Shown piece by piece: positions 6,867 to 50,020 of a stretch of 51,438 nt of DNA. The stretch's first letter is position 1, and each line of letters opens with the position of its first letter. The DNA is from Algibacter sp. (GTDB lineage Bacteria > Bacteroidota > Bacteroidia > Flavobacteriales > Flavobacteriaceae), in NCBI RefSeq assembly GCF_029245835.1, contig NZ_JAQWOO010000081.1, forward strand, positions 1-51,438, written 5' to 3'. A model generated the notes under the pieces. That model saw only the letters and a list, made by a program, of their open reading frames with translations. It was not told the DNA's origin and searched no databases. A program made the translations under genes and the position numbers.

Positions 6867-6943
6867 TGTCAGAGCTTGTCGAAGACATATTCAAGGTAGC
6901 TTTAGTGTTTTTTATGATACGCTTCGACAAGCTCAGCATGACA
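6867..6943. repeat. inverted repeat of dispersed type (13-bp perfect arms)
   Basis: The arms GAGCTTGTCGAAG (6872-6884) and CTTCGACAAGCTC (6922-6934) are perfect reverse complements, and the outer flanks TGTCA and TGACA extend the symmetry. The whole unit could fold into a hairpin with a 37-nt loop. It lies in the 293-bp gap between mnmG and the methyltransferase gene, with base composition unlike its surroundings. It looks like a REP or MITE-type element common in flavobacterial intergenic DNA. Confidence 0.6.
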
Positions 6944-7043
6944 TTATATTATGCAATTGATACCATAAAACGCTTTCATCCCTAGTTCATCAATATATTC
7001 CTGATCAAGTTCACAATGAGAAAACGAGAAAAATTAAGTTAGA

Positions 7044-30991: not shown

Positions 30992-31237
30992 AATTTATTG
31001 TTGACATAATTTAATATTAGTTAATTGACATTTGTTTTTTATAGTATTGAATACAAAACATTTAAAAATCGGACATTACCGTTTTATATAATCGACTTGT
31101 TTGTAGTACAAAATGAAAACTTAATTTAATTTTTTTGCTTTTGAAAGCCACTACAACACATGTCCAACAATCTTATAATAAAAAAATTGCAATAAAAATT
31201 AAATTTGAAGGTTTTTGCTTTTAATCTGAATTAGCCC

Positions 31238-32152: not shown

Positions 32153-32240
32153 TTTTTAATATTTTATTTATATGATTTTATAATTATCAAATTGACAACT
32201 TGATTCTTGAATAATGCGTTAATAATAAGGCTACCTGACT

Positions 32241-32858: not shown

Positions 32859-32905
32859 CTTACTTTTTTTTTAGTTATTTAAATCTATTTAACTATGTAT
32901 CATTG

Positions 32906-34336
32906 TTATAACACGCCTCTTCTTTCTTCTAATTGAGCCTTGATATCTTTTGCTCTTTCTTCAGAGAGACTGTATTTCCACATAATCCATATAGCCAAAC
33001 CAGCTGTAACAACAGGTATAACTATATCTGCAATTCTTAATTTTGTCATGGTATCCACTGTCTGTGTAGCCGCATTCCCGTCAAATCCAATAAGCTTTAA
33101 TACCAAACCTCCTAAAACAAGGGCTAATCCTTGACCAAGTTTTACAACCCACCAGTATAATGCACCAAAAGTACCCTCTTTCCTTGGCATGCCGTTAACG
33201 AGTTCATCTAAATCACAAACATCGGCAGTCATACTCATCATTAGAGTAAATAAACTTCCTAAGCCAAATGACATTAGAGGTATTGGAATAAAAGAAAGCC
33301 AAATATTATCTGGAGTAAAAGCCCACCACTTCATAGCATAGCCAACTATAGAAAGAGCAGTTGAAATAATGAAAGCCTTCTTTTTTCCCCATTTTTCAGC
33401 CATTTTTGATACAATTGGAATCACTAAAAACGCTGAAACCAATGCTCCAATAGAGCTAAACCAAGCTGGCCATGTTGATGTGGCTTCATAGCTTCCATTA
33501 AAAATATAAAAAACAAAAATGAAAAAACTGAAGGAAGCCACAATTTGATACCCGTTAAATATTAAAAAAGTAGCACCACATAATTTCATAAAAGGTTTGT
33601 TTTTTACAGCCTCTTTTATACTCACTAATAAATCTTTTAAATTAGTAAATACCGTCTTAAAACTTAATTTCTTTCTATTGCCCATATTAGCAGAATCCAT
33701 ACCTCTACAAAAAATAGCTGGTAAAAGTCCTAGAAATAGACAAGCGATTCCAACATACATCGCCATTGTTCTCACGCCTTCGGCTTGATTGCTGAAAAAA
33801 CTTGGATCAGCAATAATTACCCAAAACCAAGGGACAATTACCCAAGCTAGAAGACCTACTGTTTGCGAAAATGCCATTAAACGTGTTCTTTCATTATAAT
33901 CAGAAGTCATTTCGTAGCCTAAGCCAACCAGAGGTGTAGCAAACATGGTATTTCCAATAAGAAAAACCATTGACATAATTAGAAAGTACCAAAAATTATA
34001 ATCTGCTGAATTATTTTCATCAAGTTGCCAAAGAAGTACAAACGTAATGGCACTTAAAATACCTCCAACTAAGATATACGGTCTACGTCTTCCCCATTTA
34101 GAACTTGTATTATCCGAAATAAATCCCATAATTGGGTCGGTTACCGCATCAAAGAATCGTGGTAATCCACCTAAAAGTCCTGCCAGAAATGGATCCATCC
34201 CAAAAGCTGTTAGCAAGAAAAACATGAAGAACCCTAATGCTCCAGGATATAAGTTCAAAACCAAATGGCCCGCTCCAAAAGCTGCTTTTTGACCAAGTGG
34301 TACTCTGTTTGCTGTGGTTGTTTTTACATTTGGCAT
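32906..34336 (-). CDS. MFS (GPH-type) beta-glucan oligosaccharide symporter
   Basis: A 476-residue 12-TM protein of the GPH symporter type, with the signature DAVTDPIMGFISDNTSSKWG (63-82) followed by RRRPY, and the second-half motif LMSMTADVCDLDELVNG. It should carry oligosaccharides, or glucose-containing disaccharides, across the inner membrane with a cation. The substrate is inferred from the neighbouring GH30, GH17 and phosphorylase genes. It starts 26 bp after the GH30 gene and is paralogous to the transporter half of the fusion at 28637. Confidence 0.88.
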   Translation of the reverse strand: MPNVKTTTANRVPLGQKAAFGAGHLVLNLYPGALGFFMFFLLTAFGMDPFLAGLLGGLPRFFDAVTDPIMGFISDNTSSKWGRRRPYILVGGILSAITFVLLWQLDENNSADYNFWYFLIMSMVFLIGNTMFATPLVGLGYEMTSDYNERTRLMAFSQTVGLLAWVIVPWFWVIIADPSFFSNQAEGVRTMAMYVGIACLFLGLLPAIFCRGMDSANMGNRKKLSFKTVFTNLKDLLVSIKEAVKNKPFMKLCGATFLIFNGYQIVASFSFFIFVFYIFNGSYEATSTWPAWFSSIGALVSAFLVIPIVSKMAEKWGKKKAFIISTALSIVGYAMKWWAFTPDNIWLSFIPIPLMSFGLGSLFTLMMSMTADVCDLDELVNGMPRKEGTFGALYWWVVKLGQGLALVLGGLVLKLIGFDGNAATQTVDTMTKLRIADIVIPVVTAGLAIWIMWKYSLSEERAKDIKAQLEERRGVL

Positions 34337-34362: not shown

Positions 34363-35850
34363 TTATTGAATCACAATAGTTTGAATCGCTTTATCATCTA
34401 TTGAAAACTCTACTTGTTTCTCATTTAATGATAGGTTTATAGTTTTTGGGGTTTCTGTTTCGTTAAAGGCAACAACTACAGTTGTTCCGTCAGGATTAAT
34501 AGCTGCTGTAACCATAAGGTCATCGTCGGTATTATCTACCCCAATAACTTTAGCGCCTGGTCTTATAAATTTACTAAAATGAGCCATCGTATAATAAATA
34601 GGGGTAAAGTAAACTTCATCCTTATCTGGATCTACTATTATCGGAGCTACACACCAGTTTTTAAACCAGTTTGGACCACCTTGTCTGTCTAATACCATAT
34701 TCCAATCTACCCAACCATCTACCCAATTATTTAGGCATCCAATAATATCTCTGGCGTAGCGATTAACAGGAGCGTATTTGGGATGTAAATGTTTTTGATC
34801 TTCTGGAGCCCAATCCCAACCCCAATCAGTAGCTTCTTTACTCCAGTACCAAGCATCCTCTTTCCATTTTGGTATTTCAGAATCTACACAAGCTTCTGTT
34901 TGAATTAGAAGTTTATTCGGCGCTTTATTATGCGCGTTTTGCAATTCATTTGGATAAATTTCGAAGGTACTATCATACCAATGAATGGCTGTTCCGTCAA
35001 AATACTTTGAAGTTGCTTCATTTTTATACATAGAATCAACCCAATCTTTTAAATGTGCCCGGTTTTGATCGAATCCTAAAATGATCTTATCACCTTTACC
35101 ATCTGCCTCAAGCTTTGGTCCTAAATGATGTTGTACAAAGTTTGTCATTTCATCGGGTGTATAATGCATACTTTCCCAATTATTCCCATTACCCATAGGC
35201 TCATTTTCAACTGTAAACCCCCATATATCAATGCCTTCTGCTTTATAAGCGTCAAGGTATTTTGAAAAGAATAAGGCCCAAGTATCATAATATTCTGGAA
35301 GTAACTTACCACCAACCCAACTGTTATTGTCTTTCATCCAAGGCGCAGCTGTCCATGGTGATGCAAAAATTTTAAAGCCATCTTCAGAAACGGCCATGGC
35401 GTCTTTTATCATCGGAATAAGATCGTCTTTATCTTCCTGAATGGTAAAATGTTCTAAATCCTTGTCGCCTTCAACAGGTGCATAAGAATAATTTGAAACG
35501 GAAAAATCGCAAGAATTCATATGTGTTCTTGTAAGCGAATATCTTGCGCCATCCTTAGCAAAATAAGCTTTCAAAATGGTATCTCTGTTTTCTTTACTTA
35601 GCTTGTTTAATAAGTAAGCAGACGATTCGGTAAAAGCACCACCAAAACCTGTTATTGTTTGTAGTGTTTCTTCTGGTTTTAACTTTATAGCTGTTTTGAC
35701 TTCTAAATTTTGAAACTCCGTCAATTTAGTAAGCTTATTACCACTAGCCGAAGTTTCATAAACTTCAACCACGAGTGTTTTATCCTCATTGTTACAACTC
35801 ATCATAATTACAGTTACTATGACTAACATTATATATTCTAAATTCTTCAT
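34363..35850 (-). CDS. GH30 lipoprotein (likely beta-1,6-glucosidase on laminarin branches)
   Basis: A 495-residue lipoprotein (signal ending TVIMMSC, Cys19) with a GH30 (beta/alpha)8 domain and the associated beta-sandwich. The acid/base is E217 in GFTVENEPMGNG and the nucleophile is E319 in LLIQTEACVDSE. The conserved TGFGGAFTESSAYLL lies at about 67-81. GH30 enzymes from marine Formosa strains remove beta-1,6-linked glucose side chains of laminarin, and the gene context fits the same role. It lies between a GH17 lipoprotein gene (20 bp upstream) and the symporter gene. Cellular side is probably periplasmic or surface. Confidence 0.9.
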   Translation of the reverse strand: MKNLEYIMLVIVTVIMMSCNNEDKTLVVEVYETSASGNKLTKLTEFQNLEVKTAIKLKPEETLQTITGFGGAFTESSAYLLNKLSKENRDTILKAYFAKDGARYSLTRTHMNSCDFSVSNYSYAPVEGDKDLEHFTIQEDKDDLIPMIKDAMAVSEDGFKIFASPWTAAPWMKDNNSWVGGKLLPEYYDTWALFFSKYLDAYKAEGIDIWGFTVENEPMGNGNNWESMHYTPDEMTNFVQHHLGPKLEADGKGDKIILGFDQNRAHLKDWVDSMYKNEATSKYFDGTAIHWYDSTFEIYPNELQNAHNKAPNKLLIQTEACVDSEIPKWKEDAWYWSKEATDWGWDWAPEDQKHLHPKYAPVNRYARDIIGCLNNWVDGWVDWNMVLDRQGGPNWFKNWCVAPIIVDPDKDEVYFTPIYYTMAHFSKFIRPGAKVIGVDNTDDDLMVTAAINPDGTTVVVAFNETETPKTINLSLNEKQVEFSIDDKAIQTIVIQ

Positions 35851-35870
35851 ATGATTATTTTAATGTTCTC

Positions 35871-37172
35871 CTAGTTTTGACTAGCATGCCATTCTTCAGT
35901 AGTTGGGGGCACTTCAACGTCTTTCATTAAGGCTTCCTTATCGCCATTATACGTTTTTATTATTGTATTTCCATTTCTTGTTAATCCTTTAAATGTTCCT
36001 TTATCTACTTCATCCCAAAGTACATATTTTGCTTTCCCATCAACAGTGAATAACCCAAAATGCTTTTCAGAATTTCCAGAATTATCACCACCTTTCCAAG
36101 GTTCGTCAAATCCTTCGAAGTAAAAACATGACATTCCAGCTTCGTTAGTCCAGTCTCTCATGTGTTTATAGTAAAGTGCTTCTTTATACTCATCGCAAGC
36201 TTTCGATCCAGTAGTTCCATAGTGCCCAGAAGAAAAACTTGCCCATCCCGTTTCTCCAATATGAATTGGTTTATTGACACCAAGACTTTCCATATATTTC
36301 TTTACGTTATTAGTTTGCATCATAGCATAATTCTTGGCTCTCAACATGCAGATTTCAATTTTTTCCATATCCGTTTTACCTTCCAAACCTTCTTGATTTA
36401 ACCAAAATTCTGGCTGATAATGTGTGTCATGCATAGGGTAAGTATGAACCGAAAGAAAATCTACTGTTTTGATTAATTTATTTAAATCTTCCACATGGTA
36501 TTCTTCGCCACCGCCGCCCCAGGATGCAAAATTATCTGAACTTGTAATCCATAGATCTTTAGATAGTTTGTCTTGTTTTTTCAATTCTTGAAGATGATTA
36601 ACCCATTTTAAAATAATCCATGGTTCTACATAATAACTGGCAGCCCATTTAACCATAGCCTCGTTACCTACGGCAATAACTTTTACGATATCTGGATATT
36701 GATTTGCTAATGCAACCGTTTTTTCAATTTGCGGTTTATTATCCTCACTTTCTTCATTATGAATAGGTTCTTGATCTGTCCATGCATTTTTACAATCTAT
36801 CCAAGCACCAAGCATTACATACATTTCAAAACTTGGATCTTTCTGTTTTAACTCACTAATAGCTTTTAACAGATTTTCGGCTTGTGGTAAATGCACTTTA
36901 TAGGTTCTAACAACTCTAATCCCTAAAGCATATAAAATTTTCATATCCTCTTTTAGCTCTTCTAGTGTTGGTTCAATACTATGGTCAGGATACCTGTAGC
37001 CCCCATAAGACATTGCTAAATATTCAGAATTTCCTAAAATATCTTTTGCTGTTAATTGCTCTTTTTCAACTACTTGATTCACAGTATTCTTTTTAACTTT
37101 ATCACAAGACCATGCTAAGCAGATTAAAAAAATAAGCATGCCCTTTTTTATAATTGATACGTAGTTTTTCAT
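35871..37172 (-). CDS. GH17 lipoprotein, long form
   Basis: A 433-residue lipoprotein (signal ending LICLAWSC, Cys23) of GH17 type. The acid/base is E171 in IAVGNEAMVKWA and the nucleophile is E307 in PIHIGETGWASF. The core begins DILGNSEYLAMSYGGYR. It is longer than the cytosolic GH17 enzymes, with extra loops around residues 180-290 and a C-terminal tail. It should act in the periplasm or at the surface on beta-1,3-glucan. It starts 2 bp after the end of a close paralogue (37175), so the pair arose by tandem duplication. Confidence 0.9.
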   Translation of the reverse strand: MKNYVSIIKKGMLIFLICLAWSCDKVKKNTVNQVVEKEQLTAKDILGNSEYLAMSYGGYRYPDHSIEPTLEELKEDMKILYALGIRVVRTYKVHLPQAENLLKAISELKQKDPSFEMYVMLGAWIDCKNAWTDQEPIHNEESEDNKPQIEKTVALANQYPDIVKVIAVGNEAMVKWAASYYVEPWIILKWVNHLQELKKQDKLSKDLWITSSDNFASWGGGGEEYHVEDLNKLIKTVDFLSVHTYPMHDTHYQPEFWLNQEGLEGKTDMEKIEICMLRAKNYAMMQTNNVKKYMESLGVNKPIHIGETGWASFSSGHYGTTGSKACDEYKEALYYKHMRDWTNEAGMSCFYFEGFDEPWKGGDNSGNSEKHFGLFTVDGKAKYVLWDEVDKGTFKGLTRNGNTIIKTYNGDKEALMKDVEVPPTTEEWHASQN

Positions 37173-37174
37173 AA

Positions 37175-38395
37175 TTAAAAGTTTATAGCAGTTTCCATTC
37201 TATGAGGAGGAGGAACAACTTCAGACAGTAAATCGTCTTTATTACCATTATAGGTCTTTGTTATTGATTGTCCATCTCTAGTTAGACCTTTAAAAACACC
37301 TTTATCCACCAGATCCCATATAGCATATTTAGCCTGACCTATTAGGTTAATTAATCCAAAATGATTTTCAGAACCTAATGGATTTTCTGCATCTTTCCAT
37401 TGTTCATCAAATGCTTCAAAATAAAAACAGGAAATCATTTCTTTATTAGTCCACTCTCTCATCAATTGATAATATCTACCAGATTTATATTCATCTGCAG
37501 CTTTTGATCCATCAGCACCATAATGTTCATTAGAAATAGTTGCCCACCCTGTTTCACCAATATGAACTGGTTTATTTATGCCTAATCGTCTCATATAGTT
37601 TGCAACTCCATCAAATTGTTGTTGAGAAAACAATAAAGCACGTTGCATTGCAGCCTCTACTTTTTCAACATCAGATAGCATGACCTCTTCATCTGGAACT
37701 AACCAAAAGGCGGGATTATAGTGTGAATTATGCATGGCGTAGGTATGCATAGATATATAATCTACAGCTCTTATAAGATTATTTAAATCTTCTGTGTGAT
37801 ATTCTGCATCCCCTCCGCCCCATGATGAAAAATCATCTGAACTGGTTATCCATAAATCCTTAGGAAGCTGTCCTTTTTTCTTTAAATCCTGTAGATGGGT
37901 TACCCATTTTAAAATAACACTAGGCTGCACAAAATAACTCGTTGCCCATTTTACCATAGCCTCGTTACCAACGGCAATCACTTTTACGATATCTGGATAT
38001 TGTTTTGCTAAAGCTATAGCCCTAGCTATTTCTCCTTTATTTTGCTCACTTTCAATCTCATGATTTGGCTCTCTGTCTGTCCATGCGTTTTCACAATCAA
38101 TCCAAGCACCTAACATCACATACATTTCAAAGTTTGGGTCTTCTTTTTTCAACTCGCTAATAGCCTTCAATAGGTTAGGAGCTTGTTGTAATTGTACATT
38201 ATAAGTTCTTAAAATCTTAACCCCCATGGCTGCTAAGATTTTCATGTCTTCTTTAAGCTCATTTAAAGTAGGTTGAACATTACGCGTTTTTTTACGATAG
38301 CCTCCATAGGACATCGCTAAATAATTAGGGTTTCCTAAAATATCGGCAGCTGTTATTTGTTTTTCGGCTTTTGGCTTTTCGTTACGTCCTTGCAT
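37175..38395 (-). CDS. GH17 enzyme, long form, with an apparently lost lipoprotein signal
   Basis: The ATG at 38395 gives 406 residues of GH17 type, paralogous to the lipoprotein encoded next to it. The acid/base is E145 in IAVGNEAMVKWA and the nucleophile is E281 in PVHIGETGWATI. The N-terminus MQGRNEKPKAEKQ has no signal. In-frame codons upstream read ETKYNILTILLL before MQGR, which looks like a lipoprotein signal whose Cys has become Arg (CGT for TGT) and whose start has become ATA. The enzyme may therefore stay in the cytosol, or use an unusual upstream start. The core is intact. Confidence 0.85.
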   Translation of the reverse strand: MQGRNEKPKAEKQITAADILGNPNYLAMSYGGYRKKTRNVQPTLNELKEDMKILAAMGVKILRTYNVQLQQAPNLLKAISELKKEDPNFEMYVMLGAWIDCENAWTDREPNHEIESEQNKGEIARAIALAKQYPDIVKVIAVGNEAMVKWATSYFVQPSVILKWVTHLQDLKKKGQLPKDLWITSSDDFSSWGGGDAEYHTEDLNNLIRAVDYISMHTYAMHNSHYNPAFWLVPDEEVMLSDVEKVEAAMQRALLFSQQQFDGVANYMRRLGINKPVHIGETGWATISNEHYGADGSKAADEYKSGRYYQLMREWTNKEMISCFYFEAFDEQWKDAENPLGSENHFGLINLIGQAKYAIWDLVDKGVFKGLTRDGQSITKTYNGNKDDLLSEVVPPPHRMETAINF

Positions 38396-38446: not shown

Positions 38447-41400
38447 CTATTTTATTATTGAAACTACAATTTTATTTACTTCGCCTTTTCTCTCAAAAAG
38501 TGACTTTGAAACCTCAGTATCCAAACTTATAGCATCAGATTTTGCTCGTTTCCCATCATTAAAAACAACTTCCAAACCGTTTGCATCTGACAATTGATAA
38601 ATGATTGGTACTTGACAATAAGTAAAACATAATGAATTTGCGTCCAATACCATCTCTTGCTCTTCCTTAGCTACATTTGTAAAACGGAATGTTGAAGGCG
38701 TTTGTAAAAACTCCTTAGTTTGTAATAAACTTGGTTTAAACCCTAGCTTTCCATCTTGAACAAATATGCCTAATTCTCCAAATCTGCTTAACACATCTTC
38801 TTTAACTTGTCCAGTCATTCCTGGCTGTTGTGCGCCTTTGGTAGCTGGTGTATGCGAATAAGGGTCGGTTGGTATTGCGCCATATAATTCTGGTGATTTA
38901 TGAACCCCAATACCTGCGTTAATTTCGTAATAATGGTCTAATAATCTACCTATTACATCATCGCTTTCATTGCTGTTTATGGCTCTCAAACAATTCTCTT
39001 GAACGGCCAACAATAACTTAGATACCATGTGCCAGTAAATAGAGCCTAAACCTTCATAACCAAAAAATGTTCCTGAACGACCTGTAAAAGATTTATGATC
39101 AAAAATAGCTTCAAAGGTTTGAAGTAATAATTCCGTTTCAGATTCAACTAAAGATTTATAAGACTCATCTAGATTACTTAATGCGTCTTTTAGACTATTG
39201 GCATTATTAAAATTACCGTTAAAATGATAATTCCCGTTAACATCTTTTTCAATAATTTGCCTGTTACCCGCAGCAACTAATTTTTTAAGAAGTTCTGATT
39301 GATTAACTTTATCTGAAGAAATATTGTTCTTTTCATCAAACCTTGGTAAGTCTTTATTTGGATACAAAATATAACTATACTGGTCCGCTCTAAACAACGC
39401 ACTACTTTTTAATCCGTCTAATAAATTTAAAGCTTGAATAGGAGAGAGGTAGCCGGCGCTTAACACCGCTACTTGACCTTCTAACATTTCTGATAAATAA
39501 GATATAGAAACAGCAGCATCACTTTTAACAGTCATTATGTTATAGGCATGATACATATTATCTTCACGCTTATTGGCATTAATACTGTGTTCTAAATAAG
39601 CTTTAGTTACTTCTATGAAACTAGAAATAGCCTCTAGCTTTAATTCCGATTTACCACTAGAAAACCCATTGTTATATATGGTTTCTCTGTATATGCTTCC
39701 AGCTTTTCCTAAACCATCAAGAACTGTTTTACGGTCTTTATCTGAAATGTTTCCTGCTAAAATATTAGCGTTACCTTGAAGTGTAGCAACTATCTCATTA
39801 AAGAAAATCGCTAATTCTTGAGAAACCTGAACCTCTTTAGTTTCTGCTTTTTTAACAATACCTTCAAAGAAATTTAAAAACCTGTAGATGTAATATAATG
39901 TGACCATAGATACACCATTACCTACTAAAGCATTGTTAGCGTCATTCCATTCTGGGCGTTGCGTATTTAACCAAATACCACCTTCTGGAATAAAGTTTGA
40001 AATTTTTGAAAGTACTGTTGCCAATAACTTTTCAACTAAATTAACCTTATAGGTATTTGATTTTTGGTCTAGTAATAAGGCACCATCAGCTCCTAATTTA
40101 GCCCTTCTTTCGTTAATTTTATGATCTAAATCATGATCAAAATCAATCGTATCTTTTGGGTTTTTTAAAGTATCCGCGTAGCTTTTAATTCTGTAAGGTA
40201 CATTAGCGTATACAAACATATTCTGGTTGAAACGTTTCCCTAAAGTGTTCGGGTAGTGGTCTTCTATAAATTCTAAGAATTTTAAGAGATAAATAATTTG
40301 ATGGTCGCCCCAATAACCAATATAAGACCATGGGTCGTTTTCTTCAATAATTTCCCAATCGAAACCATCTTTTGTTACACGATAAGGGTTATAACCATCA
40401 AACGTTGTTGCGTTTAAAAACTTATGAATCATCCCTTCAATATATTCAGGATAAGCGTGTGCTAAAGCTTCCCAATTCTGAAAAATATCACGCCAATTTC
40501 CTTCGTAATCCAAAATTTTAGAACCATCAACTTCACTTTGTGTGTTAATTGAAAACTTGTTCCAAGGTCTACTAGGATCGCCGTGTCTTCTACTAAATTT
40601 CAACGGTAAATATTCAAAACATAAGCGTTGAAAGTCAAGATTATCATCTTGCTCTGCTAAGTCTTTAAGTGATTTTAAACTAAAGGTGTCTTTTAAAGCA
40701 TTTAATACGGCTCCTTTTTGAGCAAACACCTGATTATTGGCCTTACTTATGTACTTAATAAAATCTGATTTTTCAATAGTATAGGCATCATCAAAAATAC
40801 CACCACGCATAATGTTAAATAGTGTATTAGAGAAATGTCTTGTATTAATAAGCGCATCTGCTGTAAGCTGTAATCCATCTGAGGCACCCGTTAAATCAAT
40901 TAAATTTGCTGTTCCTGCATCGATATCTTTTTGAACTCGATTTGATAAATCTTTATCTTTTTTAATAATTTCTGAAATCTGAACAACATCTGAAATAGAC
41001 TGATTTAAATTGGCCACAAACATCCAATTGTTTTGATGTCCTGCCTCAAGTTCTACAGTTGAAGATATGAAATAAGCGCCTTTTTCTGCTTTAACATCAA
41101 CTTCTTGAAACACGCTTTCGCCTCTTCTAAAATCATTTAATTGAGAAGAAGATAATAAATACGTTGGGTTTTTTAAACCTGAAGACCAAACAATATTAGA
41201 TTTTAATGATTCACTTGGTTCTGCTTTATCAACAATAACAGCACTTAAAGCGTAAATCCCTAAACCAACTTCAGCTTGTAGCTCATTCTTTTTATAAGCA
41301 TCAACCAAGTTACTTCTGTTGTTTTGTAAATCTGAAGTTACTGTAGCGGGTAATATGTTTTGTAAACCATCAAGCACTGTAACTGTAACTTTAGAATCTG

Positions 41401-41902
41401 TACTGTTTATTAAAGTGGCCTTTTTTATAAAGCCAAATTCGCTACTAGAATTCCATTGATACCTGTAGGTTAAACCTAAATCGAGGTTATTTTCTTCAAA
41501 TACCACTTTATTTCCGTATACATTTTTGTAAAGGTTTGTTTGTGTTTTATAGGTTCCCATTTGGCGGATTGAAAACGGTTCCCAAATCTGAGTTTTCCCA
41601 TTTAAATGGACTTGAAAAATAGCTTTACTACCTGTAGTTTCAGCCATTTCTGTTATTTTATCATCCGTATAATATGGAAATAATGAAAATTCAGCATTTT
41701 TTCGTCCTGCAGTCAAACCCCCGTTACTTGATATAAACATCCAGTGATTAGAATCACTAACAATGCTCATAAAAAATGGGCGCATTTTATCGCTGTTGGA
41801 AATCTTATAAAAAGATTCATTATCAAAAGTAACTAGTTTTCCCGTTATTTTTTCTGAAAGCTCTGTAGCTATCTCTTCAGATTTTAAAATTGGTTGGTTC
41901 AT
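38447..41902 (-). CDS. GH149/GH94-like beta-1,3-oligoglucan phosphorylase
   Basis: A 1151-residue protein without a signal peptide, so cytosolic. The N-terminal beta-sandwich contains HWMFISSNGGLTAGRKNAEF, and an (alpha/alpha)6 domain contains SYIGYWGDHQIIYLLKFLE and RPEWNDANNALVGNG. D654 in the latter is at the place of the catalytic acid of GH94-type phosphorylases. Length and context (GH16, GH17, GH30) point to GH149, whose bacterial members cleave beta-1,3-glucan oligosaccharides with phosphate to give glucose-1-phosphate. It begins after a strong terminator-like hairpin. GH94 or a related inverting phosphorylase is the alternative; a disaccharide phosphorylase would be shorter. Confidence 0.7.
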   Translation of the reverse strand: MNQPILKSEEIATELSEKITGKLVTFDNESFYKISNSDKMRPFFMSIVSDSNHWMFISSNGGLTAGRKNAEFSLFPYYTDDKITEMAETTGSKAIFQVHLNGKTQIWEPFSIRQMGTYKTQTNLYKNVYGNKVVFEENNLDLGLTYRYQWNSSSEFGFIKKATLINSTDSKVTVTVLDGLQNILPATVTSDLQNNRSNLVDAYKKNELQAEVGLGIYALSAVIVDKAEPSESLKSNIVWSSGLKNPTYLLSSSQLNDFRRGESVFQEVDVKAEKGAYFISSTVELEAGHQNNWMFVANLNQSISDVVQISEIIKKDKDLSNRVQKDIDAGTANLIDLTGASDGLQLTADALINTRHFSNTLFNIMRGGIFDDAYTIEKSDFIKYISKANNQVFAQKGAVLNALKDTFSLKSLKDLAEQDDNLDFQRLCFEYLPLKFSRRHGDPSRPWNKFSINTQSEVDGSKILDYEGNWRDIFQNWEALAHAYPEYIEGMIHKFLNATTFDGYNPYRVTKDGFDWEIIEENDPWSYIGYWGDHQIIYLLKFLEFIEDHYPNTLGKRFNQNMFVYANVPYRIKSYADTLKNPKDTIDFDHDLDHKINERRAKLGADGALLLDQKSNTYKVNLVEKLLATVLSKISNFIPEGGIWLNTQRPEWNDANNALVGNGVSMVTLYYIYRFLNFFEGIVKKAETKEVQVSQELAIFFNEIVATLQGNANILAGNISDKDRKTVLDGLGKAGSIYRETIYNNGFSSGKSELKLEAISSFIEVTKAYLEHSINANKREDNMYHAYNIMTVKSDAAVSISYLSEMLEGQVAVLSAGYLSPIQALNLLDGLKSSALFRADQYSYILYPNKDLPRFDEKNNISSDKVNQSELLKKLVAAGNRQIIEKDVNGNYHFNGNFNNANSLKDALSNLDESYKSLVESETELLLQTFEAIFDHKSFTGRSGTFFGYEGLGSIYWHMVSKLLLAVQENCLRAINSNESDDVIGRLLDHYYEINAGIGVHKSPELYGAIPTDPYSHTPATKGAQQPGMTGQVKEDVLSRFGELGIFVQDGKLGFKPSLLQTKEFLQTPSTFRFTNVAKEEQEMVLDANSLCFTYCQVPIIYQLSDANGLEVVFNDGKRAKSDAISLDTEVSKSLFERKGEVNKIVVSIIK

Positions 41903-42025: not shown

Positions 42026-44422
42026 TTAAGGAGCTGCTTTAAGAGATACATTATCTATGTAAACAGTGCCTGTAGTTGTAGAGCCACCACCTATTAGCTC
42101 TATCAATAGCGACATACCTCCATCAACATTGGCTGCTGAGGTGAAAGGTAAAGTTTTAGTTGTCCATGCGCTTGAAACATTACCTTCTCCAGCTATAAGA
42201 TTATGCCTCACCGCCCCAGTTCCTGAGTTTTCTGCTGATTCAGAAAAGGTTGCTGCATTCAATATTGAGCCATTAGCAACAGGATCATTAACATCTGCTC
42301 TAATATCAAAAGTTACAACATAATTAGTATTTGGTTGAATAACTCCAACACCAAAACGTGTTTGCTTGATACCAGGGTTACCTCCTGGAGCAGTTTTTAC
42401 TCTTACGGAGTTGCTTCCACCATTGTTTACGTCTGTTACAATCTCAGAGGATGTGCCAGCCTGAATCTGAATAAGCTCCCAACAATCTGCATTTGCTTCA
42501 AAATCACCATCAACAATGAATTCACCTGCAGCTGGAGCAGGACAATCGCCAGTGCCACCACCACCGCCACCGCCGCCGGTACCACTGTTTAATTTTAAAT
42601 CATCGAAATAATAGGTGTTTGTGCTTGCAGTTGAAATATCAAAGAATATTACAATCTTATCATACTTACCACTATCAGCGGCACCAAAAGGAATCGTAAG
42701 CTCTTCCCATTCGTTTGTTTTGGTAGTACTTGTTGTAGATTCTCTATCGCCTGAATTGACAGCTCCTTCTGTTGATTTATCTTCTAGTTTTAAAGTTACT
42801 TTATAACCAGACTGAGGAGAAAATACTTTTATTGTGAAATTATCTCCATCTGCAAACGTAAATTTATCAGCAAAATCTAATTGTAGATTATCCCAAGGCT
42901 GTACATTCGATTTTGTTACTTTACCTACTTTACATGAATTGTTTGCGGTTGCACTAAAATCTGGGTTATCCACATACTCATAGGTTACATTATCTTGGAA
43001 AAATTTACCATCAGTCCCCTTTGTAGGTATAGTACCAGGGTCAGTCGCAAACGTTAAGTCTAAGTCTGCTGCGGTTAGTGATTGAGGTGCATCTGCAACA
43101 CAATTATCGCCACCGCCGCCGCTAGTATTTAATTTTATATCATCAATATAATACACGTTGGTATTTGCATCTCCTTGTAAATCAAAGAATATTACCATTT
43201 TATCATATTTACCGCTATCTACTGCATTAAACGGAATTGTAAGCTCTTCCCATTCGTTAGTTTTAGTAGTCTGAGTTGTAGATAATACATCTCCTGAATT
43301 AACAGCGCCTTCGGTTGTTTTATCTTCTAACTTCATTGTTACGTTATAGCCTGAAACCGGAGAATACACTTTTATTGTGAAATTATCTCCATCTGAAAAC
43401 GTAAATTTGTCGTCAAAATTAATTTGTAAGTTATCCCAAGGCTGCACACCCGATTTTGTTACTTTACCAACTTTACAAGATCTGTTAGCATCCGTAGAAC
43501 CATCTGGATTATCGGCATATTCATAAGTTACATTGTCTTCACTTACAGAAGAAATACCACCTCCTGCAATTGCCGGATCGCTTAAAAACGTAATGTTAAG
43601 ATCTGCAACGTTTAAAGACTCTTCTGTTTCTGGCGTACAAAGTGGAGCAGGAGTTTCAATTTGCATCACATCATCCATATAAAACGTACCCGATGCTGTA
43701 CCAAATCCATCAACAAATAACACTAATTTTGAGTATGAGGTTGTTTCAGAAAAACTAAACAAAAGTTCTTCCCATCCACTACCAGTATGGCTTACAATTA
43801 CATCTGAAGTAGATGACGATCCTTCCTCTAGTTTTAATAAAATATCTACCGCAGCGTCTGCCCAAAAATTCATTTTAATAGTTCCTCCTGTTGCTAAATT
43901 GATAGCTGAACCTAATTCAAAAAATATACCTTCAAAGGTCGCACCACTATTCGTTATAGCACCTACTTTAGAGGCTACACTGTTTGAGCCACCAGGAGCG
44001 GGGTTATCAACTACTGCAAAAGAAGTACCATCAAAAGCCGTTGGCTCATATACGGTATTTGCGCCATCAAAAGTGATTGGCAATGTGGCTATTTCAGGAA
44101 TTAAAATGGTTATCTCATCTTGAAACGTATCTGAAGATCCAGAAACGGCAGACGCCTTTAAAACAACGGTATAAGTACCATTTTGGTAAGCCTTAACAGG
44201 GTTAATGAGTGTAGAGCCGCTTTGATCTCCAAAATCCCAAGTATAATTTGTGGCGTCTGTTGATAGATTAATAAAAGTTACCACCCCTGTATCTGCATTA
44301 AGAGTATACGTAAAGCCTGCAAGAACTTTTGGTAAATTCGTGTCATCCTCTTCGCAACCTATAAAGGTTATAGCCAAGATTAAAATTGAAATCTGTTTAA
44401 ATGTTCTGATTAATTTTTTCAT
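42026..44422 (-). CDS. PKD/CBM surface glycan-binding lipoprotein
   Basis: A 798-residue lipoprotein (signal ending ITFIGC, Cys23, then an acidic EEDD export-type signal). A PKD domain (about 35-105, NYTWDFGDQSGSTLINPV) is followed by a first CBM-like sandwich (about 110-258), two tandem CBM repeats of about 181 residues (from residues 262 and 441), a Gly-rich linker (about 612-625), and a last CBM (about 627-798, ending VYIDNVSL). It has no catalytic motif. PKD-containing binding lipoproteins occur in laminarin loci of marine flavobacteria, and this one probably captures glucan at the surface. It ends before the hairpin at 41953. Confidence 0.85.
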   Translation of the reverse strand: MKKLIRTFKQISILILAITFIGCEEDDTNLPKVLAGFTYTLNADTGVVTFINLSTDATNYTWDFGDQSGSTLINPVKAYQNGTYTVVLKASAVSGSSDTFQDEITILIPEIATLPITFDGANTVYEPTAFDGTSFAVVDNPAPGGSNSVASKVGAITNSGATFEGIFFELGSAINLATGGTIKMNFWADAAVDILLKLEEGSSSTSDVIVSHTGSGWEELLFSFSETTSYSKLVLFVDGFGTASGTFYMDDVMQIETPAPLCTPETEESLNVADLNITFLSDPAIAGGGISSVSEDNVTYEYADNPDGSTDANRSCKVGKVTKSGVQPWDNLQINFDDKFTFSDGDNFTIKVYSPVSGYNVTMKLEDKTTEGAVNSGDVLSTTQTTKTNEWEELTIPFNAVDSGKYDKMVIFFDLQGDANTNVYYIDDIKLNTSGGGGDNCVADAPQSLTAADLDLTFATDPGTIPTKGTDGKFFQDNVTYEYVDNPDFSATANNSCKVGKVTKSNVQPWDNLQLDFADKFTFADGDNFTIKVFSPQSGYKVTLKLEDKSTEGAVNSGDRESTTSTTKTNEWEELTIPFGAADSGKYDKIVIFFDISTASTNTYYFDDLKLNSGTGGGGGGGGTGDCPAPAAGEFIVDGDFEANADCWELIQIQAGTSSEIVTDVNNGGSNSVRVKTAPGGNPGIKQTRFGVGVIQPNTNYVVTFDIRADVNDPVANGSILNAATFSESAENSGTGAVRHNLIAGEGNVSSAWTTKTLPFTSAANVDGGMSLLIELIGGGSTTTGTVYIDNVSLKAAP
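42554..43639. repeat. tandem intragenic duplication of a 543-bp CBM unit
   Basis: Two adjacent units of 543 bp (181 codons) in the PKD lipoprotein gene are highly similar, for example the AAGCTCTTCCCATTCGTT segments at 42698 and 43241. Both encode a CBM-like domain with DGDNFTIKV and KTNEWEELTIPF. Confidence 0.85.
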
Positions 44423-44435
44423 TGTCGTTTTTTTA

Positions 44436-45338
44436 TTAGTTGTTACTTCTTTTGTATACTCTTACATAATCTACGAGCATGGATTGAGGAAATATTTCGT
44501 CGCTGTCCGGATTTCCAGGAAATGCACCACCAACAGCTAGATTAAGAATAATGTAATAAGGCTTATTAAATACCCATTCGCCTAACTCTCCAGTTAAATT
44601 GGCAGGTGTTACGTTAAGATCGGCAGGTGTTATTTGATTATATAATACATCGTCTACATAAAAATTTATATAGTCTGGACCCCATTCAATACCAAATATG
44701 TGGAATCCATTATCTATTCGCTCCTCTAAATCGTAACTTTTTGTGATTTGTCCTTGAGGAAGCGTTAAGCCTGAATACCCCGGGCCATGAACTGTTCCGC
44801 TAATAGACGTTGGCTCATCCCTTCTATATTCCATAATGTCAATTTCTCCGCATAACGGCCAATTTGAATCGAGTTGCTCTCCAACATCCTCGCAATCTGC
44901 TCCGAGTAACCAAAAGGCTGGCCATAAACCTGAACCAGACGGAACTTTTATTCGCGCTTCGAAACGCCCATACTGTTGTTCAAACAACCCTTTAGTAGAA
45001 AGTCTCGCCGAAGTAAAGGTGGCATTTTGAAAGTCTTCTTTCTGTGCCGTAATAAGCAACATCCCATTTTGTACCGATACATTTTTAGAACGATCTGTAT
45101 AAGACTGTAGCTCATTATTTCCCCATCCGTCAAAACCCGTTCCAGTATCGTAACCCCAAATGGCAGGATTTGGAACACCATCAACATCAAACTCGTCTGC
45201 CATAACAAGTACGTTAAAAGTTGTCACTGTTTGTTTCTCATCTGTTTCACAACTATAGATAACTAAAACCGCTACCAATAGAAAAGACATAAAGAGTAAG
45301 GTTTTTTCCTTTATTTTATATGTTTTTGTTTTATTCAT
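44436..45338 (-). CDS. GH16 endo-beta-1,3-glucanase (laminarinase) lipoprotein
   Basis: A 300-residue lipoprotein (signal ending VLVIYSC, Cys30). The GH16 jelly roll has the catalytic motif GEIDIMEY with nucleophile E165, D167 and acid/base E170, and the preceding SGSGLWPAFWLLG typical of laminarinases. The C-terminus is PQSMLVDYVRVYKRSN, as in GH16 beta-1,3-glucanases, and there is no extra binding module. It should be surface-exposed and cut internal beta-1,3 bonds of laminarin. It lies 13 bp before the PKD lipoprotein gene and 32 bp after the interrupted binding protein. Confidence 0.93.
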   Translation of the reverse strand: MNKTKTYKIKEKTLLFMSFLLVAVLVIYSCETDEKQTVTTFNVLVMADEFDVDGVPNPAIWGYDTGTGFDGWGNNELQSYTDRSKNVSVQNGMLLITAQKEDFQNATFTSARLSTKGLFEQQYGRFEARIKVPSGSGLWPAFWLLGADCEDVGEQLDSNWPLCGEIDIMEYRRDEPTSISGTVHGPGYSGLTLPQGQITKSYDLEERIDNGFHIFGIEWGPDYINFYVDDVLYNQITPADLNVTPANLTGELGEWVFNKPYYIILNLAVGGAFPGNPDSDEIFPQSMLVDYVRVYKRSNN

Positions 45339-45370: not shown

Positions 45371-46825
45371 TTATTCCTTATAGAAGTAAATATTATCTAG
45401 TATGAAGTCTGGACCGCCTGCTAAAATTAGTGCTCCCAAATTGTTCTTTTGAGTAGCAAGTCCCGCATCTAACGGAATATCTATAGATGTCCATGATCCA
45501 ACTGCTAATCCATTTGCATCAAACCTTTTATCTTTATCATCACCATCAGGATTACCGGTAAAAACATTCGTTTCTATTTCGCCATTCGCTCCTACATCCC
45601 TTATTTGTATATTAACATTGGTACCCGCATTTTCTGTATAAATATCAATATGCAAATGTGTTAACGTCGAGGCGTCTATTGTGCTATCGAAAATAATGCC
45701 TGTAAAATTATTATTTGTATATGCCTGCACCTGTTGACCAGTTGACCCTAATTCAGTTGTTTGTGTTGTAGAGCCGCCAAAACCGGGACTAAAATTACTA
45801 GTAGTAGCAGGGGTATAGGCATCACTATAAATAGACTTAACATCTATTGCTGGTCGGGTTGGAACTGGAGCAAGGTCTAACCCTCCACTCGAAGTGATAG
45901 TTAATGAGCCCTCTGCTTTAATTCCAGATAGCGCAGCTGTTATTTCTGCTGTACCCTCACCAATAATACTTACAATCCCATTCTCATCAACAATAGCAAC
46001 ATCGGTATTAGATGATGAAAAATCAAAATACCTAGGAGCAGCGTTAACTACAACATCTAGTCCATTAATATTATATTTTGGCTGTAAGCCCGATGCCGCA
46101 AGATTAATTTCACTTCCTGTAAATGTTTGTACTTCCGCATCTTCTCCTCCCAAAATAATCGGTCTTGGTTGAGACACCGATCCTAAATTTTCAAATTTAA
46201 GTTCGTCTATCCAAAAGGTAAATCCCATACCACCAGTACTTTGAGATCCTGCAGAGAAAAGAAACATCCCTCTTTCTTGTACTAATTTAGAAGGATCAGG
46301 AATTGGAATAACATATTTTTTCCACGTTGTAGATAGCTGAATATTTTGCAAGCTCGTAGCATACTTGTCTCCAACAAAACCTTCTGGAAAATCATCGCCA
46401 AACGTTGTGCCAAAACCAACATCCCCAACTGTTGCTGTTGTAGTGCCTTTTGCCCAAAACGTAAGGGCATTATACCTAGTTAAATCTCTTCACTCTCCGC
46501 GATCTCTAAAAATACCCCCTATATAAGTTCCGTCAGGATCTGTATCCGAAGGAACAGCAATTCTGATAGATGTTGTGCCTGCATAAATATCCTTATTACT
46601 CACACCAAAGCCTTCCGTATTAGCGCCCGTTGCAGGATCAAACGACACAAAGAATTGATCGGTAAGTCCAACAGGATTATCAGTAAATATTTCGGCATTG
46701 CTTGGAAATGTAGCAAAAACCGCTTCATCAGATAGTTCTCTATCACAACTCACTACCATAGTGAGTATGCAGCCAAGAATAGCTGTTATTTTTGTATATG
46801 TAAATTTTATGTTTTTCATTTTCAT
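45371..46825 (-). pseudogene. glycan-binding lipoprotein with an in-frame TGA
   Basis: One continuous frame of 485 codons, broken only by a TGA at 46490-46492 (codon 112, in the context DRGE-stop-RDLTRYNALTFWA). It starts with a lipoprotein signal (VVSC, Cys27). A CBM-like domain (about 35-210) contains the TGA; a Big_2-type Ig domain (about 218-315) and a C-terminal CBM-like domain (about 330-484, ending FILDNIYFYKE) follow. The C-terminal domain is homologous to one in the T9SS protein at 22468. The intact form would be a surface glycan-binding protein. Either a one-base nonsense mutation or a sequencing error is present. Confidence 0.8.
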
Positions 46826-46831
46826 CTTATT

Positions 46832-49800
46832 TTATTTACCAATATTGATGTGTACATAGGTTCTAATCTCCCATTCGCTTCCGTTACCAAATCCAACTGG
46901 ACTTGCTAGAGGAATTGCTGGAACTGCGCCAGCTGGAGCTGCAATAGGTGAATACCTAGGTGAATTTTGATCTAACGATCGCCACGAGCCACGGATACCT
47001 ATCTTAGTATCTGGAAGAATAAACCAATCTGGTTTTCCTATTGATGTTGAAATATCAATAATGTTTTGAACTGGAAATGTGAGGTTAAAATCGCGGTGGT
47101 AATCAAAAGGTCCCCAATCGTTAACCTTGAAACCATAGTCAATTTTCCAATTGTTATAAATCATTTTAAAGTTTCCACCAAAGCGTTCTATAGTTCTATC
47201 GCTATCACCATTCGCTTGAGCATTCCCACCATAAAAGTTTGCAATAATTCCTAAATCTCTATTTACTTTAGAAACAACACGAGAACTTATTTCCCAAAGG
47301 TCTTGTCGTGGTGCAGATTGTCCGAACGGAGCAAAAGTACGATTGGCTAAAAACCCTATGGCTGCATCTTGTGCTGTAGGATGATGACGGTACACAAAAC
47401 CTAGGTTAAACGCAATTTTTGCATCCTCCGCACGGTCGTTATCCCACTCATAAAAAAACGATCCTGGTGTGGGGTCAAAAGTTAAAAGTAACTCCCCAGC
47501 TGTTGTTTCTCTGTTACCTCTAACAGCGAACGGATCGCTTATAAAGTTCCTTAATCTTCCAGGAGCACCTATATCGTTAGGCATTGGTGCTACTAAAGGT
47601 TTTTGCCAAAGGAAGTTTGGTGCAATTTGCCATTTTCCTGTGCTTACTGTAAAACCGGTAAGTACATTGGTTTGGTTACCACTTCCTGAATCCTTAAGTT
47701 TCCACCCTGTAAATGTCATTGTCGCATCAGCACCTCCATTAGCTACTAAGCCCATATAAGCACCTTGAGCGTACCAATTAAACCTTCCTTTTTGATACGT
47801 TATTTTTGCTTTTGCACCCCAGTTGTCATCTGAATTTATTTTATCTTGGTAAACCACATAATTACCTGATTCGCCAGTGACGTCTTGAAACGAACTCCCA
47901 TTTAATGGACTACCTCCCCAAATACCACCTATTAAAAAATCAAAAGCTCCAAATTCTCTTTCAAGAGCTATAGTAGCGCGTTCTGTAGGCCATCCCGGAA
48001 TCACACCACTACGAACCTGATTAGCATTAAGAATCCTTTGTCCGTTTGCATCGAAATTTAAGCCTGTATCTAAGTCTCTATGATAGATACCAGTTACGTC
48101 CCAATGATTTAATTTTGTTCTATACTTTAAAAGTACGGTTGGATTTGCTCCCCACCATAATTGTGGGCCAAATGCTGCCTTAAACCCATCTAAAGACCCT
48201 TTTCCATCAACCTCCATGCCTAATATCTCACCATTATAGATATCTAAGTTAGGGCCATAATTAGCTTCCGGATATAAACCGAAAAAATCGCCCTCATACT
48301 GCCAATGGTAATGTCCTGTTCTATAAAAACCTCTTACATCTGCATGTTTTGAGTTCCATTCAAACTCTGCGTTATAAACTCTTACTCGATTATTATCTGT
48401 TATAACAATTTCTTCACCGTTTGCATTTACTACCGTTATAGGGGTGCCAACACTTTCGTAAAAAATCTGATCAATAGGGTTTTGCGCTACGTTACCAAGT
48501 ACATTAAAGTTAACTTCTGCCCTCATATTCGAAGTTGGGTTTCCTTCAACACCTATATAATAAGACTGCATATGATCAAACCCCAATTGGTTTGGAAAGT
48601 CTTCAGTATCTGGATCAGCAGTATTTGGAGTTGTTATTAAACTTCCCCCTGTATTAAATGTTGAAAACTCAGCTCTGAAATTACTAAGTCTAATTTTATC
48701 TGAGCCATCTCCTTTTAAAGCTGCTTTATCGCCACGTGCTTTTAAAACCGCATCCATAAGTTGAATGTTACTAAAATGATTTTCAACAAACGCTGCATCA
48801 ACGCCTTCAGCATAAGGGTTTAATTGATGTGCTTCTTTTAAGGCGTAATAAGCGGCACGTGGATATAATTCGTAAAGTCCTCTAGAACTAGTTGGTCCTT
48901 TTGCACATATACCAAACCACTCTTCGTTCATATTGTTTTCGCCAGGTGCTAAATCAATAGAATAGCCACCATTAGCCCATGATGCGTTCGTGTCGTGCAA
49001 ATCGGCATTCTCTCTATCATCAAAACCAAATTTCCACCAGCCATCACTAAACTGAAATGTAAAACCTCCTAAAGAGTTATTTGCTTTTCCTAATCCAGCA
49101 GCATTTTGATAAATCTCCTTCCAGTTCTCAACCATATAATAGGCCTGAGCTTTTTGGTCTTCTTTACCCTCAATAGCATTAAAAGCATCAGCTCCAAACT
49201 CAGTAAACATAATTGGCTTGTTAAGCTTTTCTTTCACAACGTCAAACATGTCTGTAAACGACGCTCCACGATAAGAATTCACCCCATATATATCTACATC
49301 TTTACATTCTTCTGCGATAATATCAATAAACAAAACGTCACCGTTACATATAGCAACGGGATGCGAAGGATCCATTTCTTTTATCATTTTAGAAACTTCG
49401 TTCATCAACCTATACATTGGTCGTCCACGACTTTCTCCTATAAAATTTATTCTTCCTTCATCATCTGGAAAATCCTCAGTTTCCGCACCTGCCCAAAACA
49501 AACCATAATTGTTTTCGTTACCTAATAAATAAAGCAGTAAACCCGGTGTATCTTTATACCCTTCTACCAAATCTTTCATATCTGTCACCAACTGATCTTT
49601 TGTAGTTGGGTCATCATAAATAGTAACGGGCGTCCATGCACCATTAATAGTTAAACCATATCGACCAAAAGAATGATTAAGCATGGTATAGATACCGTAG
49701 TTTTCGTAGATATACTTAATCCATCTTGCTGGAACTCCAGTGTATTGGCGTATTACATTAACATTCATATTCTTTAACAAAGACATTTCTGTGTCAAGTC

Positions 49801-50020
49801 CTGCCTTGATAACATCATCTGATTTGTTCCAAAAATTGGCATTAACAGTATTTGTTCCAATTGGGATAAAATCCCAATTCATACCATTAATTATAAAATC
49901 CTCTCCATTGACAACTAATTTCATGCCGTCTGCATTACTTACAACTTCTACTTTATTTGCCTGCGCAAAAGAGAATGTTGTAAATAATAAGAGTAATAAT
50001 CTTAGAAAATTGTTTTTCAT
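46832..50020 (-). CDS. glycosidase (TIM barrel) fused to an outer-membrane beta-barrel
   Basis: A 1062-residue exported protein (signal about 1-19). Residues about 22-405 form a clan GH-A-like (beta/alpha)8 domain, most like the GH2 TIM-barrel group. Candidate catalytic residues are acid/base E169 (LLGNENNYGLFW) and nucleophile E274 (MFTEFGADAFN). A short helical link leads from about residue 445 to amphipathic strands rich in Tyr, Trp and Asn to the end (WEIRTYVHINIGK), typical of a large outer-membrane barrel. The enzyme would thus be held on the membrane by its own barrel. It is the first gene of the main operon, with no SusC/SusD next to it. The GH family is uncertain; the two-part architecture is clear by reading. 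Confidence 0.85.
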   Translation of the reverse strand: MKNNFLRLLLLLFTTFSFAQANKVEVVSNADGMKLVVNGEDFIINGMNWDFIPIGTNTVNANFWNKSDDVIKAGLDTEMSLLKNMNVNVIRQYTGVPARWIKYIYENYGIYTMLNHSFGRYGLTINGAWTPVTIYDDPTTKDQLVTDMKDLVEGYKDTPGLLLYLLGNENNYGLFWAGAETEDFPDDEGRINFIGESRGRPMYRLMNEVSKMIKEMDPSHPVAICNGDVLFIDIIAEECKDVDIYGVNSYRGASFTDMFDVVKEKLNKPIMFTEFGADAFNAIEGKEDQKAQAYYMVENWKEIYQNAAGLGKANNSLGGFTFQFSDGWWKFGFDDRENADLHDTNASWANGGYSIDLAPGENNMNEEWFGICAKGPTSSRGLYELYPRAAYYALKEAHQLNPYAEGVDAAFVENHFSNIQLMDAVLKARGDKAALKGDGSDKIRLSNFRAEFSTFNTGGSLITTPNTADPDTEDFPNQLGFDHMQSYYIGVEGNPTSNMRAEVNFNVLGNVAQNPIDQIFYESVGTPITVVNANGEEIVITDNNRVRVYNAEFEWNSKHADVRGFYRTGHYHWQYEGDFFGLYPEANYGPNLDIYNGEILGMEVDGKGSLDGFKAAFGPQLWWGANPTVLLKYRTKLNHWDVTGIYHRDLDTGLNFDANGQRILNANQVRSGVIPGWPTERATIALEREFGAFDFLIGGIWGGSPLNGSSFQDVTGESGNYVVYQDKINSDDNWGAKAKITYQKGRFNWYAQGAYMGLVANGGADATMTFTGWKLKDSGSGNQTNVLTGFTVSTGKWQIAPNFLWQKPLVAPMPNDIGAPGRLRNFISDPFAVRGNRETTAGELLLTFDPTPGSFFYEWDNDRAEDAKIAFNLGFVYRHHPTAQDAAIGFLANRTFAPFGQSAPRQDLWEISSRVVSKVNRDLGIIANFYGGNAQANGDSDRTIERFGGNFKMIYNNWKIDYGFKVNDWGPFDYHRDFNLTFPVQNIIDISTSIGKPDWFILPDTKIGIRGSWRSLDQNSPRYSPIAAPAGAVPAIPLASPVGFGNGSEWEIRTYVHINIGK

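Follow-up and report, generated by a model that had tools for sequence, protein, structure and literature searches.

A clan GH-A glycosidase fused to a predicted outer-membrane barrel in a beta-1,3-glucan locus of Algibacter sp.

One frame for a glycosidase and a predicted outer-membrane barrel

The stretch of DNA analyzed here (hereafter the window) is 51,438 nucleotides of Algibacter sp. (contig NZ_JAQWOO010000081.1, positions 1 to 51,438). On its minus strand, positions 46832-50020 form a single open frame of 1062 amino acids. The original prediction, made from the letters alone, read this frame as a glycosidase joined to an outer-membrane beta-barrel, and this two-part architecture is borne out by structure prediction and conservation. 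The gene has the following features, where GH stands for glycoside hydrolase, TIM for triosephosphate isomerase and pLDDT for the predicted local distance difference test score.

46832..50020, minus strand: whole gene, with signal peptide, GH-A TIM barrel, hinge and a predicted outer-membrane barrel of about 24 strands
49964..50020, minus strand: putative Sec signal peptide, residues 1-19, without a lipobox Cys and followed by a near-invariant Gln20 (by eye; alignment)
48731..49951, minus strand: clan GH-A (beta/alpha)8 glycosidase domain, residues 24-430 (Pfam, sequence matches, model, Foldseek)
49514..49516, minus strand: Glu169, predicted acid/base, in the pair Asn168-Glu169 after beta4 (alignment and model)
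49199..49201, minus strand: Glu274, predicted nucleophile, at the end of beta7 (alignment and model)
48695..48730, minus strand: end of the last helix and hinge, residues 431-442, with pLDDT below 50 at 435-440 (model)
46844..48694, minus strand: predicted outer-membrane barrel of about 24 strands, residues 443-1059 (model, alternation, Foldseek)
46835..46882, minus strand: amphipathic C-terminal strand, residues 1047-1062, modeled as a strand at 1047-1059 (sequence and model)

The frame is one intact fused gene of two parts. A chance fusion or an assembly artefact is ruled out by 128 retrieved members that span more than 950 query residues; 116 remain after thinning at 95% identity (the window's own copies counted), and the 104 aligned rows reach down to 51% pairwise identity. 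The AlphaFold2 model built from these 104 sequences has a mean pLDDT of 81 and a predicted template-modeling score (pTM) of 0.57; an earlier run on 12 close homologues gave a mean pLDDT of 50 and was not used.

The structure prediction and fold search proposed with the original prediction match the two halves separately, one to GH158 and the other to outer-membrane barrels. In Foldseek searches of the Protein Data Bank (PDB), GH158 laminarinases are the top matches of the enzyme half (9p26, E = 8.4e-13; BuGH158 6pal, E = 3.1e-12), which also matches other GH-A enzymes, and the barrel half matches BtuB3 (8p98, E = 2.5e-9), Campylobacter MOMP (5ldv, E = 1.4e-8), PfeA and OccAB3. In a viral structure library, a porin leads the matches (E = 2.0e-7), followed by a GH5 enzyme, and no close relative of the barrel emerged there. 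The fold of each half is known, and so in principle are fusions of transporters with carbohydrate-active enzymes.

At the sequence level, the barrel half matches no known family in the libraries searched: the C-terminal half of the window's protein gives no hit in Pfam at E = 10, the C-terminal half of one of three relatives reaches DUF6882 at E = 0.078, below the cut-off, and the barrel-half profile has no PDB sequence match at E = 10. Its hydrophobic alternation, a measure independent of the model, exceeds that of all 300 shuffles, with 26% of 10-residue windows having a beta moment above 0.45 compared with 10.6% in the shuffles (standard deviation 2.7, maximum 20.0, n = 300). The GH half, at 5.5% of windows, lies below its own shuffle mean of 11.2%. 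By prediction the protein has the features of an outer-membrane barrel, namely a signal peptide, antiparallel amphipathic strands, short turns alternating with long loops and an amphipathic C-terminal strand, and 19 of the 23 barrel sites of family insertions lie in long connectors. The barrel start, first put at about residue 445, is refined by the model to about 443, and the amphipathic C-terminal strand that had been read from the letters is seen at 1047-1059. Soluble beta-sandwich domains, the other fold considered for residues 445-1062, did not appear; such a make-up of the C-terminal half is ruled out by the alternation, the model and the Foldseek matches.

In the enzyme half, the Pfam scan finds the GH2 TIM-barrel domain PF02836 at 31.7 bits (cut-off 21); this domain, above its curated cut-off, is the feature shared with GH2, to which a large barrel is added here. 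Local sequence matches are to GH2 beta-galactosidases and GH158. GH2 enzymes carry sugar-binding and Ig-like domains N-terminal to the TIM barrel. In the model of the fused protein, the TIM barrel starts at most about 45 residues after the signal peptide, and PF02836 is the only GH2 domain found, with no Pfam match to a GH2 N-terminal sugar-binding or Ig-like domain. The NCBIfam GH2 equivalogs score 34.3 bits, far below the cut-off of 1284. A plain GH2 label is ruled out, as the TIM-barrel model alone matches; the one annotated copy seen, in Bacteroides finegoldii, is labeled a GH2 TIM barrel-domain protein, with the outer-membrane barrel unmentioned.

The best structural match, GH158 (BuGH158 and GH158(Pro), which are endo-beta-1,3-glucanases), shares the beta-1,3-glucan locus setting. 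According to the available part of its description, GH158 has an Asn and then the acid/base after beta4, and the nucleophile after beta7, as here, and the catalytic E137 and E220 of BuGH158 are placed equally to Glu169 and Glu274 (PMC7157763). In sequence alignments, Asn168-Glu169 falls on an Asn-Glu pair in a GH2 enzyme, while Glu274 falls on the Glu in a TEFG stretch of GH158(Pro). Both glutamates, proposed as catalytic from the letters, stand up well: they are invariant in the 104 aligned sequences, together with Asn168, Asn248, Tyr250, Trp328 and Trp329, and in the model they take clan GH-A positions in a (beta/alpha)8 barrel, with Glu169 in an Asn-Glu pair after beta4 and Glu274 at the end of beta7. 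The likeness to GH158 is distant, at 13-14% identity and a target TM-score of about 0.52 in the structural alignment. GH158 also has an Ig-like domain at its C-terminus and lacks a barrel, as far as the same partial source goes (PMC7157763), whereas in the fused protein no Ig-like sheet is predicted between residues 323 and 430 and a barrel follows.

Distribution of the fusion

The fusion is not a rare oddity. More than 100 related bacteria carry it, and the search for homologues with the same two parts, which had been suggested as a check, shows that it recurs across Bacteroidota genomes. A scan of genome contigs for relatives, with patterns taken from the GH half, confirmed at least 566 stretches; the 80 that were kept match the query nearly end to end, and the remainder need not be fused. 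In a set of 60 relatives, full-length relatives are present in 11 of the 59 other genomes. The barrel profile has matches in 31 of 296 Bacteroidota genomes at E = 0.01, and 27 of these 31 genomes (the window's own included) have a barrel of full length, each within a frame of 1046-1084 amino acids; the other four matches are partial or weak. One of the 27 rows counts a TAA, yet reads as an unbroken open reading frame (ORF) of 1048 amino acids. These survey relatives align to the query over both halves. Within the window's family, the profile is matched in 32 of 149 genomes, giving 30 full-length barrels, 28 of which lie in frames of at least 1033 amino acids (judged by frame length). Of the two exceptions, one has a frameshift within its GH part (G605) and the other lies at a contig edge (G687). 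The frameshift, at about 6940-6975 of locus L171 (G605:C1:1620000-1632000), breaks the fused gene in a single-contig genome. The surveys of 296 and 149 genomes overlap, with some genomes in both.

In the class of G109, the full-length profile matches in 21 of 294 genomes at E = 0.001; eight matches cover its whole length, three are truncated, and the majority of the others cover the GH half only, in frames of 409-525 amino acids (with internal stops in some rows). A full-length barrel as a stand-alone gene was not seen in these genome surveys, and the GH half seems to have free relatives. Three loci (L013, L015 and L020) encode stand-alone proteins of 334-347 amino acids in which a lipobox can be seen by eye. 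They share 30-39% identity with the enzyme half of the fusion, which is absent from two of the three genomes. Judged by sequence, these proteins are possibly a free form of the same enzyme.

Plasmid records add Persicobacter and Bacteroides finegoldii, and the locus that holds the fused gene is conserved across Flavobacteriia, Saprospiraceae and one Bacteroides. In B. finegoldii (L141; NZ_OY725931.1, 11867-22903), the fused gene lies with GH16 and bglX: DUF6377 is on one side, and a hypothetical gene, GH16, a fimbrillin gene, another hypothetical gene and bglX are on the other. Although recorded as a plasmid, NZ_OY725931.1 includes rpsA and a gene for valine-tRNA ligase, and may be a misnamed piece of the chromosome.

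The beta-1,3-glucan locus and SusCD

In the window, the genes follow in the order GH-barrel, Ig-like lipoprotein, GH16, PKD lipoprotein, GH149, two GH17, GH30, a major facilitator superfamily (MFS) transporter, GH17, MFS-GH17 and GH17. The features downstream of the fused gene, and a second locus of the same genome, are as follows.

45371..46825, minus strand: downstream Ig-like lipoprotein gene, likely glucan-binding, one frame with an internal stop (Pfam and frame reading)
44436..45338, minus strand: GH16 lipoprotein, likely a surface endo-laminarinase, with the surface place inferred (Pfam, NCBIfam)
42026..44422, minus strand: PKD/MAM lipoprotein, likely glucan-binding (Pfam)
38447..41902, minus strand: GH149 1,3-beta-glucan phosphorylase, 1815.6 bits against a cut-off of 1150, with no signal peptide by eye
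34363..38395, minus strand: two GH17 genes and one GH30 gene (Pfam scan)
28637..34336, minus strand: MFS_2 transporter, ORF of 205 amino acids without a Pfam match, GH17 and MFS_2-GH17 fusion (Pfam scan)
L169 (G000:C54:30000-48570): SusD, PKD protein, GH16 protein of 1792 amino acids, GH16, GH30, sugar transporter and GH3

The in-frame stop in 45371-46825 lies about a quarter of the way in, and the relative in locus L031 is intact; the stop reflects either an assembly error or recent decay. The GH17 gene at 37175-38395 scores 26.4 bits, slightly below the Pfam cut-off of 28.2. At 28637-30991 (minus strand), an MFS_2 sugar symporter carries a C-terminal GH17, an inner-membrane fusion known from Formosa according to the accessible part of PMC6246565. 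A protein of 1100 amino acids with FG-GAP and ASPIC-UnbV domains (24272-27574, minus strand) lies at the far end of the locus.

Neighbors were counted in the 80 kept loci within flanks of at most 10 kb, with truncated loci scored as misses. The N- and C-terminal parts of the lipoprotein are found in 77 and 76 loci, GH16 in 74, GH149 in 56, each of the two GH17 queries in 52, PKD in 31, GH30 in 30, MFS in 11 and MFS-GH17 in 3. Where at least 8 kb of upstream DNA is present, a regulator lies upstream in 58 of 61 loci, and the copy tested has a Y_Y_Y domain. GH16, GH17, GH30, MFS and GH149 genes occur together in the window, as in the Formosa or variant B type of laminarin locus, compared here with the available portions of the Formosa and Muricauda accounts (PMC13188888, PMC6298971). 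The Muricauda account places a 'GH2 beta-glycosidase' upstream in its laminarin locus, and the portions of it at hand make no mention of an outer-membrane barrel for this gene (PMC13188888). It is probably the fused gene, because on Muricauda contig SGIU01000001.1 (locus L047) the fused gene stands together with GH16, GH17s and GH30. A gene called 'GH0', which is highly expressed in laminarin loci of the North Sea (PMC10108472), may be the same gene.

Genes for SusC and SusD, searched with two query pairs, lie upstream in 18 of the same 61 loci and were not found upstream in 43, where no search was made further off; none is listed in the 29-kb stretch of B. finegoldii, whose gene table is incomplete by nature. 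In the window, the contig ends 1.4 kb upstream of the GH-barrel gene, after a short phyH-like gene (50510-51211), so that an adjacent SusCD is not on this contig and one beyond it is possible. The best match in the window's genome to the laminarin-locus SusC of L031 has 37% identity. The second beta-glucan locus listed above is on a separate contig that stops just past SusD, and its SusC was not seen. Because of this SusD-bearing locus, the GH-barrel protein is not claimed to be the sole glucan importer of the cell; it may add to SusCD uptake without replacing SusCD.

SusC, a TonB-dependent transporter, resembles the fused protein as a large outer-membrane barrel in a glycan locus, and TonB-dependent receptors are among the Foldseek matches. 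However, TonB-dependent transporters have a plug inside a 22-stranded barrel, compared with about 24 strands here, and the SusC of L070 has a plug and a CarboxypepD_reg-like domain, to neither of which the GH-barrel protein has a Pfam match.

Topology, conservation and a possible route of glucan uptake

Outer-membrane barrels have their short turns and their C-terminus on the periplasmic side. In the fused protein, 24 strands were counted from the DSSP string of the model, with two short hairpins within loops omitted. The connectors after even strands are 2, 3, 6, 2, 2, 2, 2, 21, 2, 2 and 9 residues long, and those after odd strands 19, 37, 34, 9, 30, 29, 26, 31, 28, 7, 11 and 30 (medians 2 and 28.5; Mann-Whitney p = 9e-5, with the division into classes resting on the model). 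With an even strand count and short connectors on the C-terminal side, strand 1 would start in the periplasm, and the enzyme ahead of it would be periplasmic too, provided that it is not threaded out through the lumen as in autotransporters. Such threading through the lumen appears less likely in the model, because the helix before strand 1 is confidently folded (pLDDT about 86-94 in block 421-430, almost as high as in the GH fold) and confidence drops only afterwards, at 435-440. The original prediction had left two options, a surface enzyme that anchors itself and an enzyme that feeds products through its own pore; the latter would fit the model better, because a strand count that begins at the C-terminus, itself periplasmic, leaves the enzyme on the periplasmic side as well.

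Conservation follows the predicted barrel. At strand positions, inward-facing residues have a conservation of 0.803 compared with 0.695 for outward-facing ones, a difference reached by none of 5000 random parities. Five outer connectors exceed the enzyme mean of 0.766 and contain conserved aromatics (567-600, 619-627, 757-782, 808-838 and 970-980), and three of them are near-invariant (567-600, 0.91; 619-627, 0.95; 970-980, 0.96). This pattern fits a selective pore, unlike what is expected of a mere anchor, and is not proof of one.

These results may be combined in a scheme that stands about an even chance of being right, in which the protein acts as a selective pore whose inner mouth carries a hydrolase for laminarin oligosaccharides, serving a beta-1,3-glucan locus. 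The extracellular GH16 would make laminarin oligosaccharides, which the large, substrate-selective barrel would admit; the N-terminal glycosidase, held at the periplasmic mouth, would cut them on emergence, and hydrolysis would keep the inward gradient steep and prevent products from leaking back. The barrel and the GH-A fold are predicted by the model, and from there we infer the periplasmic side, the beta-1,3-glucan specificity, the import and the coupling. A further step, to which we give less credence, is that the protein represents a separate class of importer, a self-contained pore whose own glycosidase drives uptake without a SusD lid or TonB.

Several observations weigh against the selective-pore scheme. 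Target-normalized TM-scores are modest (0.52 to GH158 and 0.35 to BtuB3), with root-mean-square deviations of 15-18 Å, and a pTM of 0.57 does not fix how the two halves are placed relative to each other. The effective alignment depth is about 4 at 62% identity, the strand number is read from the DSSP string, and a closed, channel-forming barrel is a possibility suggested by the Foldseek matches. Alternation is nearly nil in strand 1 (0.09) and low in strand 19 (0.34), one connector taken as periplasmic is 21 residues long, and the helix at 421-436 before strand 1 could sit in the lumen in the manner of autotransporters, for whose domain there is a weak match in the viral structure library (rank 5, probability 0.51). 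In barrels at large, the outward positions tend to be the most variable, and the contrast between inward and outward conservation stands without a control barrel of the anchor type. The outer connectors at 461-479, 509-545, 650-679 (0.47), 705-733 and 1017-1046 (0.58) are variable, and outer connectors overall, at 0.718, are not above the barrel mean of 0.734. Many conserved charges face inward, and the interior could be closed. The second beta-glucan locus with SusD also provides the same genome with another candidate route.

If the protein were instead a self-anchoring surface enzyme, the glycosidase would be threaded out through its own barrel and cut laminarin outside, with the barrel serving mainly as an anchor. 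The order of enzyme and then barrel in one chain is that of enzyme autotransporters such as EstA and NalP (type Va), in which a 12-stranded barrel brings the enzyme outside, as stated in the available part of PMC6555100. The claim that no characterized enzyme with this arrangement is known needs qualifying, since in these esterase and protease autotransporters, too, an enzyme precedes a barrel, although one of 12 strands. The position of helix 421-436 immediately before strand 1, the weak autotransporter match and the endo-laminarinases included in the nearest fold, GH158, are also consistent with self-anchoring. Yet the C-terminal half has about twice as many strands and gives no autotransporter hit in Pfam at E = 10, the helix seems to belong to the enzyme, with the break only at its end, the inward residues and some loops are highly conserved for an anchor, and the locus already has a GH16 lipoprotein. 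Self-anchoring is thus unlikely.

Less likely again is a role as partner of a TonB-dependent transporter, in which the barrel would be an accessory or anchor within a SusCD-centered complex. The 18 loci with SusCD upstream and the second SusD-bearing locus would agree with such a partnership, but the 43 loci without SusCD found upstream, the B. finegoldii stretch with none listed and the 37% best match to the SusC of a relative argue against it. Separate proteins do the work of hydrolase and channel in Pel, cellulose and alginate export, and PgaA and BcsC have their periplasmic domain at the N-terminus, ahead of the barrel. A role in releasing or trimming a glucan of the cell's own making, with the hydrolase in the periplasm and the barrel as outer-membrane channel, is nevertheless very improbable, as the scanned genes of the locus are catabolic or serve transport (GH149, GH17, GH30, GH16 and sugar symporters), with no glycan synthase among them. 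Some GH folds have turned into binding modules, and the fused GH might likewise be a non-enzymatic glucan-binding cap or plug of the pore; the invariance of Asn168, Glu169, Glu274, Asn248, Tyr250, Trp328 and Trp329 in the 104 sequences makes this hardly credible.

If the barrel is the entry route, the fusion offers a widespread, so far undescribed mode of uptake that can be tested, and glycan-use predictions based on SusCD only would miss it. SusCD was not found upstream in 43 of the 61 loci, and the one annotated copy seen is filed under GH2 without its barrel. Should transport be shown, the protein would be a new class of importer; as a separate class, it would serve beta-1,3-glucan loci that lack SusCD. 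In the accessible portions of the open-licence literature, no description of a glycosidase fused to an outer-membrane barrel was found.

The selective pore proposed here, the most likely mechanism, would be an outer-membrane counterpart of the MFS-GH17 fusion of Formosa. If the separate class is real, the two fusions of the window's locus would mean that transporter-glucanase fusions cross both membranes. In Formosa, FbGH17b joins a transporter and a beta-1,3-glucanase in one chain, with coupled cutting and uptake proposed in the part of the account available (PMC6246565). FbGH17b lies in the inner membrane with its GH17 at the C-terminus, whereas the GH-barrel protein is predicted to lie in the outer membrane, with a different GH-A enzyme at the N-terminus.

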